NCBI GenBank assembly: GCA_022822545.1
Contig: JAJEBE010000032.1
Span: 62,001 to 126,000, forward strand
Length of the DNA stretch: 64,000 bases
Direction: 5' to 3'
Origin: Anaerolineae bacterium
Lineage (GTDB): Bacteria; Chloroflexota; Anaerolineae; Aggregatilineales; Phototrophicaceae
The notes under the pieces were generated by a model. That model did not search any database. It had not been told where the DNA came from and saw only the letters and a program-made list of their open reading frames with translations. Positions within the stretch are counted from its first letter, which is position 1; the number at the start of each line of letters is the position of its first letter. Of this stretch, positions 50,814-53,713 are shown in pieces. Made by a program: the position numbers and the translations under genes.

Positions 50814-50830
50814 CCTGCTCAAGCAGGAGG
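50814..50830 (+). promoter_or_regulatory. Hairpin overlapping the Shine-Dalgarno of the first S1-domain gene
   Basis: CCTGCT-CA-AGCAGG followed by AGG; SD AGGAGG at 50825-50830. Confidence 0.45.
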
Positions 50831-50843
50831 CAAATCGTTCCCT

Positions 50844-52076
50844 ATGAGTGAAACGCTAGACCCGAATACGCAGCACGATGAAAGCTTCGAGGAAATGCTC
50901 GCCTCGTCTTTCGACTTTTCATACACGCCGCCGCGGCGCGGTGAAATCCGCGAAGCCACAATTCTCCAAATCGATGAGCGCGAGATCATTGTCGATCTCG
51001 GAGCGAAACAAGATGGCATTGTGCCATCACAAGATCTGGAACGGATGGATGACGCCTTTCGAGAAAGTTTGGCGACCGGCGCCAGTGTTCCCGTCTACGT
51101 CGTCAACCCGCGCGACCAAAACGAAAATCTCATCGTTTCGATTAACATGGGTTTGCAGCGCTATGATTGGGAGAAAGCGCGCGAGCTCCTGTCTTCGCAA
51201 GACGCGGTGGATGTCAAAGTCAGCGGTTACAACAAGGGCGGCGCGCTCGTCCGCTGGAACCGGCTTGAAGGATTCATTCCAAGTTCTCATCTCGTGTCCA
51301 CCAATCTATCCGTGGATCGCAAAGAAGCGATGACACAGTTGATTGGCAATACCCTCGGCGTAAAAGTTATCGAGGTGGACCAGGATCGGCGTCGGCTGAT
51401 CTTCAGTGAACGCGAAGCCCAAAGGGAATGGCGCGCGCGCCGCAAGGCAAAGCTGCTGGCCGAGCTTAACGTTGGCGATGTGGTCAACGGCGTGGTGACC
51501 GGCTTGCGCGATTTCGGCGCTTTCGTCAACATCGGCGGCGCTGATGGCCTGATTCACGTCAGCGAATTGGCTTGGCACCGCGTCGATCATCCCCGCGATA
51601 TCTTGCATATCGGCGAGGAGATCGAAGTCTACGTGCTGAACCTTGATCGGCAAACCAACCGCATTGCGCTCAGCCGCAAGCGCTTGCTCAGCGATCCCTG
51701 GGATGATGCGCAGTATCGCTACCACGAAGGTCAATTGGTCGCAGGTTACGTCACCAATGTAGTCGATTTTGGCGCCTTTGTTGCCTTGGAAGACGGCCTA
51801 GAAGGTTTGCTCCACCTCAGCGAAATGGGCGATGGCGCCTTGAAAGAACCCTATTCCTACGTGCAAAAGGGTGATCACCTGTCCTTGCGCATCAGCCACC
51901 TTGAGCCGGAAAAGCGGCGCGTCGGTTTCACCCAGCGCTGGGGCACCGAGCTTGGTGAAGACGGCGAGGACGAAGCCGGCGTCGTCACTGCCTCCGGCGA
52001 CGATGCCGCCGCAGAAGCGCAAACTGAAGAAGCGCCGACGAACGAAGCTGAACCGGACGTCAAAGACGCGCCGTAG
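50844..52076 (+). CDS. rpsA: Ribosomal protein S1-like, four S1 domains (copy 1)
   Basis: Four S1 motifs including VVNGVVTGLRDFGAFVNIGGADGLIHVSELAW. Confidence 0.9.
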   Translation: MSETLDPNTQHDESFEEMLASSFDFSYTPPRRGEIREATILQIDEREIIVDLGAKQDGIVPSQDLERMDDAFRESLATGASVPVYVVNPRDQNENLIVSINMGLQRYDWEKARELLSSQDAVDVKVSGYNKGGALVRWNRLEGFIPSSHLVSTNLSVDRKEAMTQLIGNTLGVKVIEVDQDRRRLIFSEREAQREWRARRKAKLLAELNVGDVVNGVVTGLRDFGAFVNIGGADGLIHVSELAWHRVDHPRDILHIGEEIEVYVLNLDRQTNRIALSRKRLLSDPWDDAQYRYHEGQLVAGYVTNVVDFGAFVALEDGLEGLLHLSEMGDGALKEPYSYVQKGDHLSLRISHLEPEKRRVGFTQRWGTELGEDGEDEAGVVTASGDDAAAEAQTEEAPTNEAEPDVKDAP

Positions 52077-52169
52077 ACGTATCCGAAGCCGACTAGATCG
52101 CCGCAAAAGCGCAGCACTTTTACGCCTGCCTGAAAGGTGGGCGCCGTGTCTTTTTCTCTAGCTGCTATG

Positions 52170-52198
52170 TTGACAGTCGTGTACAGCGACAGTATAAT
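52170..52198 (+). promoter_or_regulatory. Consensus sigma70 promoter TTGACA-N17-TATAAT
   Basis: TTGACA 52170-52175, TATAAT 52193-52198. Confidence 0.85.
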
Positions 52199-52270
52199 TC
52201 GCCGCGTGTTTTGGTGAGGTCATTTCGTCCGTTTGAAGGTTGTAATCGTAGACGAGCCGGGAATACCAAG

Positions 52271-52309
52271 CCTGGATGTTCAGTTAAGACTGAAGCCGGG
52301 TTTTATTTT
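52271..52309 (+). terminator. Intrinsic terminator in leader of second S1 gene (attenuator candidate)
   Basis: CCTGG-ATG-TTCAGT-TAAG-ACTGAA-G-CCGGG then TTTTATTTT. Confidence 0.7.
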
Positions 52310-52438
52310 GCCTGGAGAACGATAGTGTACTCGCGGCAATTTCGCCCGGCTCCATAGAATCCAGCGCTTATTATCACGCCCGACGAATACGCGCTCGCCA
52401 GAATGCGATGGTCATTCGTAAGGAGAGAGCAATTGCTT

Positions 52439-53713
52439 ATGCACACAGAATCTGTAGCAAGTGAGTCGGTGGAAGAGCTGGATTTCGCGGCGCTTTTGGA
52501 AGAGTCGCTCGCCGAGAGTCAACTCGAGCGAGGCGATATCGTTAACGGAACCGTGCTGTCTATAGACGGCCAAGGCTTGATTGTTGATATCGGCTGGAAG
52601 CAAGACGGAATCGTCACCCGCGGCGATATCGAACGCATGGGCATGAGTACCATGGACTTCCAGGTGAACGCGGAAATCGCCGTTGCGGTTGTCAATCTTA
52701 GCGACCACGATGGCAACTTGATCCTTTCCGCCGCTCAAGCCCGCCAAAACGAAGACTGGAAACGCGCCGAAGAACTCATGAACGACGAGACGCTTTGGAC
52801 CGGCGAAATCATTGATACCAACCGGGGCGGCGTGATTATGGCCTTTGGACACCTCCGTGGATTTGTTCCCGCCAGCCACGTTCTGGATCTGCCGCGCGGC
52901 CTAAGAGAAGAAGAGCGCACCGCTTTCTTGCAGAAACTGGTGGGGAACGAGGTCACAGTCAAGGTCATCGAAGTGAATCGCAAGCGGCGCCGCCTGGTCT
53001 TCAGCCAATTGGAAGCGGAGCAGGAAAACCGTACCGCGCGCAAGGAGGCCTTGCTCAGCGAACTTTCAGAAGGGGCTACGCGTAAAGGTGTTGTCAGCGG
53101 CCTTTGTGATTTCGGCGCCTTTGTCGATCTCGGCGGCGCTGATGGCTTGGTTCATATTTCGGAATTGGCTTGGCATCGCGTGCGCCATCCCAGCCAGGTA
53201 TTAGCCGTCGGCGACGAAGTGGATGTATTCATTCTCAATCTCGATGAACAGGGCAAACGCATCGGCCTTAGTTTGAAGCGGCTTCTGCCCAATCCCTGGA
53301 CCCTGGTCGATGACATGTACCACATCGGCCAATTGGTCGAAGGTGTCATCAGCCGCCTCGAATCTTTTGGCGCATTCATCAGCCTTGATCCCGGAATCGA
53401 AGCCCTGCTGCACGTCAGCCAGATGTCCAACAATCCCGATGAGAACCCTCTGCGCCATCTCTACGAAGGGCAGAAACTGCTGATGCGTATCATCAGCATC
53501 GAGGCCGACCGGCAGCGCCTCGGCTTGAGCCTCACCGAAGTGACCGCCGCTGAAAAATCCCAATGGGATGAACGCCAGCTTGAGCTGGTGGCTGCCGCCT
53601 CAGAAGCGGCGCAGCTTGAGGCGGAACAAGCGGAAACCGCCGCGCAAGAAGCGGCCCAAGCCGCGGACGAGACTGAGTTGGAGACTGTCCAGAGCGACGG
53701 CGATGAGAGTTAG
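52439..53713 (+). CDS. rpsA: Ribosomal protein S1-like, four S1 domains (copy 2)
   Basis: GDIVNGTVLSIDGQGLIVDIGWKQDGIV, GFVPASHVL, GVVSGLCDFGAFVDLGGADGLVHISELAW. Start trimmed from 52403. Confidence 0.9.
   Translation: MHTESVASESVEELDFAALLEESLAESQLERGDIVNGTVLSIDGQGLIVDIGWKQDGIVTRGDIERMGMSTMDFQVNAEIAVAVVNLSDHDGNLILSAAQARQNEDWKRAEELMNDETLWTGEIIDTNRGGVIMAFGHLRGFVPASHVLDLPRGLREEERTAFLQKLVGNEVTVKVIEVNRKRRRLVFSQLEAEQENRTARKEALLSELSEGATRKGVVSGLCDFGAFVDLGGADGLVHISELAWHRVRHPSQVLAVGDEVDVFILNLDEQGKRIGLSLKRLLPNPWTLVDDMYHIGQLVEGVISRLESFGAFISLDPGIEALLHVSQMSNNPDENPLRHLYEGQKLLMRIISIEADRQRLGLSLTEVTAAEKSQWDERQLELVAAASEAAQLEAEQAETAAQEAAQAADETELETVQSDGDES

Follow-up and report, generated by a model that had tools for sequence, protein, structure and literature searches.

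A conserved putative transcription attenuator with a structured read-through leader upstream of an S1-like gene of Anaerolineae

In the literature that was searched, autoregulation of ribosomal protein S1 is described solely as a translational mechanism of gamma-proteobacteria. In this group it is established that S1 regulates its own synthesis and has a preference for U/AU-rich RNA; the autoregulated Escherichia coli protein prefers U- and AU-rich single strands (PMC10931766). Transcription attenuation is known from another ribosomal protein operon, and the available part of the report on the Bacillus subtilis rplJL leader describes attenuation by L10(L12)4 (PMC4538822). A survey of bacterial premature terminators mentions neither rpsA nor Chloroflexi (PMC2965389). 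Neither an S1 leader in Chloroflexota nor transcription attenuation of S1 was found in the searched literature, which consisted mostly of the main text of freely accessible papers. An S1 attenuator with a structured leader that is distributed throughout an order of Chloroflexota would represent an independent way of controlling S1.

The window, i.e., the whole stretch of 64,000 nucleotides that was analysed, contains two tandem genes that each encode a protein with four S1 domains (copy 1 at 50844-52076, copy 2 in Table 1), with rpsU and infA located downstream of the pair. The nearest named records of the host genome are Anaerolineae/Chloroflexi MAGs. For both proteins the NCBIfam models of ribosomal protein S1 were the top matches, yet the scores were below the cut-offs, and we therefore prefer the cautious name "S1-like". 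The same genome has another S1-like gene elsewhere, the third, with 38% identity (contig C27:104249-105388, L003), and the combination of tandem copies with a third gene looks unusual for ribosomal protein S1. The start of copy 2 was assigned to the ATG at 52439, because this codon and the upstream AAGGAGAG are kept in relatives. The ATG at 52403, which opens the longest reading frame, was rejected as start codon; it is situated inside one strand of a long-range helix (P0, see below) and is not kept in relatives. The leader of copy 1 has features of its own: a hairpin CCTGC-TCAA-GCAGG (50814-50830) that abuts the Shine-Dalgarno AGG and is kept in most members of the genus, and a TATAAT about 230-270 nt upstream of the ATG. 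This hairpin is possibly a separate translational control element.

Table 1. Features of the S1 copy 2 leader and its surroundings (positions in the window).
Feature	Position	Strand	Characteristics and evidence
Terminator-like hairpin with T-rich tail	52123..52150	+	3' of S1 copy 1, before the promoter; terminator scan
Consensus promoter TTGACA-N17-TATAAT	52170..52198	+	11-12/12 in all genus members; 10-12/12 elsewhere in the family where detected
Predicted transcription start	52205	+	About 7 nt past the -10 (+/- 2 nt); P0 of relatives begins here
P0 5' strand	52205..52226	+	Includes the purine-rich SD-like tract TTGGTGAGG (52211-52219)
P3 5' strand GAGCCGGG	52254..52261	+	Directly upstream of the terminator
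P2 terminator hairpin CCTGG-ATG-TTCAGT-TAAG-ACTGAA-G-CCGGG	52270..52300	+	CCTGG 52271-52275, TTCAGT 52279-52284, loop TAAG, ACTGAA 52289-52294, CCGGG 52296-52300; sequence, fold, covariation
U tract TTTTATTTT	52301..52309	+	Predicted 3' end of the approximately 105-nt attenuated RNA
P3 3' strand CCCGGCTC	52345..52352	+	
P0 3' strand CGAATACGCGCTCGCCAGAATGCGA	52384..52408	+	3' end 30 nt upstream of the ATG
Shine-Dalgarno AAGGAGAG of S1 copy 2	52420..52427	+	Position kept in relatives
S1 copy 2	52439..53713	+	Four-S1-domain protein, 424 aa

A first-pass annotation of the window had reported a perfect consensus promoter upstream of copy 2, followed by a hairpin with a T tract about 130 nt before the gene. 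The coordinates of the promoter were exact, the hairpin and TTTTATTTT are located at the given places, and the ATG lies 129 nt past the T tract. Only 10 perfect promoters of this type exist in the 4.27-Mb genome, and the reversed pattern does not occur (0 cases). When promoters scoring at least 11/12 were collected from the related loci (808 kb, both strands), a terminator followed in 32 of 38 cases at S1 and in 0 of 3 cases elsewhere. Start sites were predicted from the promoter spacing, and the distance from the predicted start (about 52205) to the end of the T tract is 105 nt. The hairpin has a predicted energy of -14.9 kcal/mol (RNAfold); a simple terminator scan did not detect it because of its internal loop. 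Its pattern occurs once in the window and 0 times in shuffled sequences. The 121-nt leader up to the terminator as a whole is not unusually stable (z -0.49).

The annotation had proposed covariation analysis as a check, and it was found that the hairpin covaries. In alignment A1, 97.8% of the P2 cells are paired, 8 double-change cells were observed vs 1.2 in shuffles (0/500), and the covariation score was 0.180 vs a maximum of 0.072 in slid registers. No other helix of the leader covaried as strongly as the upper stem. The terminator arms also gave a strong signal in a swap test (see below), but this result is biased, since hairpins had been chosen for pairing, and the covariation in alignment A1 was relied on. 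The terminator stems are GC-rich, with -13 to -28 kcal/mol, and are followed immediately by 4-9 U; outside of the genus their sequence differs (ACTCGGTAGC...GCCGAGTTTTATTTTG, ACCGGC...GCCGGTTTTTTG).

The element is present in a single copy in its own genome. A covariance model built from 27 leaders had one match per genome in 34/34 genomes of the genus, exclusively at the S1 copy 2 gene. Promoter, leader and terminator precede the orthologous S1 gene in 33 of the 34 leaders examined in the genus. The exception, L054, a natural terminator knock-out, has kept the promoter and the core of the hairpin and has lost the T tract (CCGGGCGGTATAAAGG). The geometry is stereotyped: from the start to the T tract there are 102-113 nt throughout the genus except for L054 (100 nt), and the distance from the T tract to the ATG varies between 47 and 130 nt. 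The 5' part of the leader is conserved (67% mean column identity), and conservation continues past the U tract (GCC). A hairpin with a T tract between promoter and S1 ATG was found in most genera of the family. In the sister families, for which the start codons were assigned by a script, the terminator precedes S1 in 12/12 (f3), 5/5 (f8), 2/2 (f6) and 3/5 cases (f4), and it is scarce in f7 (2/11) and f2 (0/4). No terminator was recognised in the lineages g2, g16-g21, f2 and most of f7, many of which retain the promoter and P0, and therefore the terminator is not indispensable. Outside of the order, the arrangement was absent at about 40 more distant Chloroflexota S1 genes. The arrangement of promoter, leader and terminator before S1 is not a product of chance, and its conservation throughout the order supports the proposal of an attenuator in the S1 leader.

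Expression of copy 2 is expected to require that polymerase passes this terminator, because copy 1 itself ends in a terminator-like hairpin (Table 1). A similar hairpin, GCCTGCC..GGCGGGC followed by TTTT, is visible in most long-spacer members of the genus. Between the terminator and the ATG no promoter scoring above 9/12 was found in the genus, which again makes read-through a likely requirement for S1.

Some of the leader structures proposed in the first-pass annotation are supported by conservation, but the dominant long-range helix, P0, had been missed. In the window, its two strands pair with -22.4 kcal/mol. P0 was analysed with a swap test, in which each 5' strand is combined with the downstream region of every other species; shared ancestry works against the signal. 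The 5' 22 nt were compared with the region [-62,-22]. The self pairs were better than the swapped pairs with z values of -4.6 (33 genus leaders), -7.7 (35 other leaders of the family) and -11.3 (68 pooled leaders), and the self value was reached by 0 of 10,000 permutations. None of the four control region pairs gave a signal with the pooled leaders, and the lowest p value of a control in a subset was 0.039. The signal was also present in the sister families f3 (p 6e-4), f7 (p < 1e-4) and f4/f6 (p 0.01), and it was absent in f8, despite the terminator there. The permutation p values ignore phylogeny, although the test is conservative in that the swaps are made between relatives. Overall, about 40 region pairs were tested; P0 survives any correction, and the second helix described below, P3 (1e-4), survives a modest correction.

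Examples for P0 strand pairs of relatives are GAUUUCACGGGA/UCUCGUGAAAUC and GAUCUUUAAGGAA/UUCCAAAGAGAUC. In most leaders the last nucleotide of the 3' strand is 23-37 nt upstream of the ATG, irrespective of the length of the spacer between terminator and ATG. When the partner was initially sought in the genus within a short region measured from the terminator, there was no signal, because the P0 partner is located at a fixed distance from the ATG and not from the terminator. An SD-like motif is present within the first 26 nt of 67/71 leaders vs 24% of control windows. P0 also occurs in lineages without terminator, and therefore the distribution of the structured read-through leader is no narrower than that of the stop. 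Four leaders of the sister family f7 (L226, L221, L229, L220) have a P0 that extends to about 20 bp (an example is GGUUCGGGCUAGGACGCGUUUGCC with UGCAAGCGCGCCUGACGCGAAUC). Since a terminator is mostly not recognised in them, they are well suited by nature for studying P0 in isolation. With its variable sequence and its fixed geometry about 30 nt before the ATG, P0 allows direct mutational tests of whether a 5' end can signal the fate of the transcript to the ribosome-binding site.

The complementarity of GAGCCGGG and CCCGGCTC, noticed already in the first-pass annotation, has support as a conserved long-range helix (P3), an equivalent pairing being kept in the 19 genus members with long spacers (p = 1e-4 in the swap test; p 0.004 when the window and its two closest relatives were left out). 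The view that P3 is confined to the nearest relatives was overturned by this test. P3 is absent from the short-spacer members of the genus (p = 0.33). The partners of P0 and P3 are made only after the terminator, and therefore both helices are no classical antiterminators and describe the read-through RNA.

The leader has the promoter and the terminator of an intrinsic attenuator, upstream of S1 and oriented towards it. A mutually exclusive antiterminator upstream of the 3' arm was rejected, as in family-wide swap tests the region upstream of the hairpin had no conserved complementarity to either arm. A weak signal for the P0 5' strand vs the foot of the terminator was restricted to the genus (z -3.1) and absent in other genera. 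Leader-peptide attenuation was also discarded; a short reading frame preceded by a Shine-Dalgarno motif exists in 15/73 leaders, and none is shared beyond very close relatives. Masking of the Shine-Dalgarno sequence by the P0 3' strand was rejected as well, the complementarity not being above that of shuffled sequences, and a putative hairpin P1 (about 52225-52229 with 52251-52255) was weak and not significant in the swap test. In a comparison with Rfam 15, neither the window nor any of 12 relatives had a match at the gathering score, in agreement with the earlier statement that no known riboswitch class is present; the best sub-threshold match was a miRNA model (E 0.42). The consistent location in the 5'-UTR of a ribosomal protein gene and a structure that is supported by covariation are both features of r-leaders. 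Two further observations were made. The GGTCATTTCGT near the 5' end (52218-52228) is repeated as GGTCATTCGT just before the Shine-Dalgarno sequence (52410-52419), with GTCAGATCGTTCG and GTCAATCGTACG in relatives; an RNA-binding protein might recognise both repeats. Outside of the genus, CCC-N3-GGGGG is found at the Shine-Dalgarno sequence before the ATG in L163, L170, L176, L180 and other leaders of the family (e.g., ACCCGTGGGGGA), and it could form a small hairpin that masks the Shine-Dalgarno sequence.

The region 52170-52438 is therefore best read, with good though not full confidence, as a cis-acting leader of the S1 mRNA that combines a transcription attenuator with a structured 5'-UTR of the read-through transcript. 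Transcription would start near 52205 from the consensus promoter, insulated from S1 copy 1, and RNA polymerase would meet the intrinsic terminator at about +65 to +105. Some transcripts would end near 52309 as an RNA of about 105 nt, and the remainder would be extended into S1. Once the RNA extends past about 52408, its 5' terminus is predicted to pair with the segment that ends about 30 nt before the ATG (P0), and in long-spacer relatives P3 would be a second helix that encloses the terminator hairpin. The entire leader could thus close into a rod-like domain next to which the ribosome-binding site stays open. We infer that termination takes place in vivo and that the extent of read-through is controlled, and S1 production is probably throttled by ending many transcripts early.

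It is tempting to speculate that S1 itself is the regulator and tunes termination or initiation. This tentative but reasonable guess is based on the analogy with r-leaders (PMC7247131) and on the U/AU preference and autoregulation of gamma-proteobacterial S1 (PMC10931766). The lack of a conserved antiterminator, leader peptide or anti-SD pairing in the searches described above favours either a direct protein effector or an unregulated brake. A more speculative and rather unlikely extension would be a two-stage sensor of a hitherto undescribed type, in which free S1 sets termination on the nascent leader and P0 then sets translation or stability of the transcripts that have escaped. If this were true, the SD-like 5' strand would be free only in the terminated RNA and paired only in the mRNA, and the same 20 nt would report which fate the transcript took.

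The unregulated brake would mean that the terminator constitutively fixes the ratio of read-through, while P0 buries the 5' end and stabilises the mRNA. That neither an antiterminator nor a leader peptide is conserved fits this explanation, and so does the beginning of P0 at the predicted +1, as would be expected for a 5'-protecting stem. However, to keep a very strong promoter together with a conserved stop during the time span of an order would be expensive if only a fixed ratio were to be set. Regulation is the usual reason for such a coupling, and the brake is considered unlikely. Somewhat more doubtful is the explanation that the hairpin and the U tract serve mainly translational control, offering a U-rich single strand to S1 or the 30S subunit within a leader closed by P0. 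The persistence of P0 without the terminator, the fixed distance of its 3' strand from the ATG and the conservation beyond the U tract (GCC) are in line with this possibility, as is the preference of S1 for U/AU-rich RNA upstream of the Shine-Dalgarno sequence (PMC10931766). In contrast, the GC-rich stems of -13 to -28 kcal/mol with their 4-9 U are textbook intrinsic terminators, terminators recur with changed sequence in sister families, and the complementarity of the P0 3' strand to the Shine-Dalgarno sequence that is expected for an anti-SD switch did not exceed the shuffled controls.

It is very improbable that the approximately 105-nt RNA is a free-standing small RNA that acts in trans, with S1 being expressed from leaky read-through. 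In favour of such an RNA, the transcription unit is complete and its 5' part conserved, and its 5' end, complementary to the S1 mRNA just before the ribosome-binding site, could pair in trans. However, the element is found always and only before S1 in 34 genomes, its 5' part coevolves with the mRNA of the same species downstream of the terminator, as for a cis leader, and lineages without terminator retain P0. The terminator/antiterminator switch of the first-pass annotation, in which CCCGGCTC alternates between GAGCCGGG and the 3' arm of the terminator, can practically be dismissed: although P3 is conserved in long-spacer relatives and the full-leader minimum free energy structure of the window pairs the 3' arm with CCCGGCT, this alternative pairing is not conserved (p = 0.36), short-spacer members lack P3, and CCCGGCTC, made 36 nt past the U tract, is not yet available at the moment of termination.

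Taken together, the element is best filed as a cis-regulatory leader or attenuator of a ribosomal protein gene, with S1 binding as a hypothetical part, and its leader is a candidate for a new RNA family that has no Rfam match. With the r-leaders it shares that it is a lineage-limited, covarying RNA in the 5'-UTR of a ribosomal protein gene, and some r-leaders act via a conditional terminator, comparable to the putative terminator in the S1 leader (PMC7247131). It differs in that the ligands given there for 20 new r-leaders do not include S1, and the text of this source does not mention Chloroflexi; moreover, no rRNA mimicry was shown for the S1 leader, and S1 is only a candidate ligand. The B. 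subtilis rplJL leader, as described in the available part of the source, is similar in that transcription of a ribosomal protein operon is attenuated in the leader, but gene and RNA are different, and in the S1 leader no antiterminator was detected (PMC4538822). Ribosome standby 5'-UTRs such as that of tisB, again according to the available part of the source, likewise have a structure close to the 5' end and well upstream of the ribosome-binding site; gene and RNA are different here as well, and a standby role of the S1 leader is hypothetical (PMC7708055). The initiation region of gamma-proteobacterial rpsA also controls S1 and has a conserved fold directly upstream of the start, but it acts on translation and lacks a canonical Shine-Dalgarno sequence (PMC10931766). 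In contrast, the S1 leader described here has a Shine-Dalgarno sequence (GGAG/GGGGG; AAGGAGAG), which is kept in relatives, and carries a terminator.
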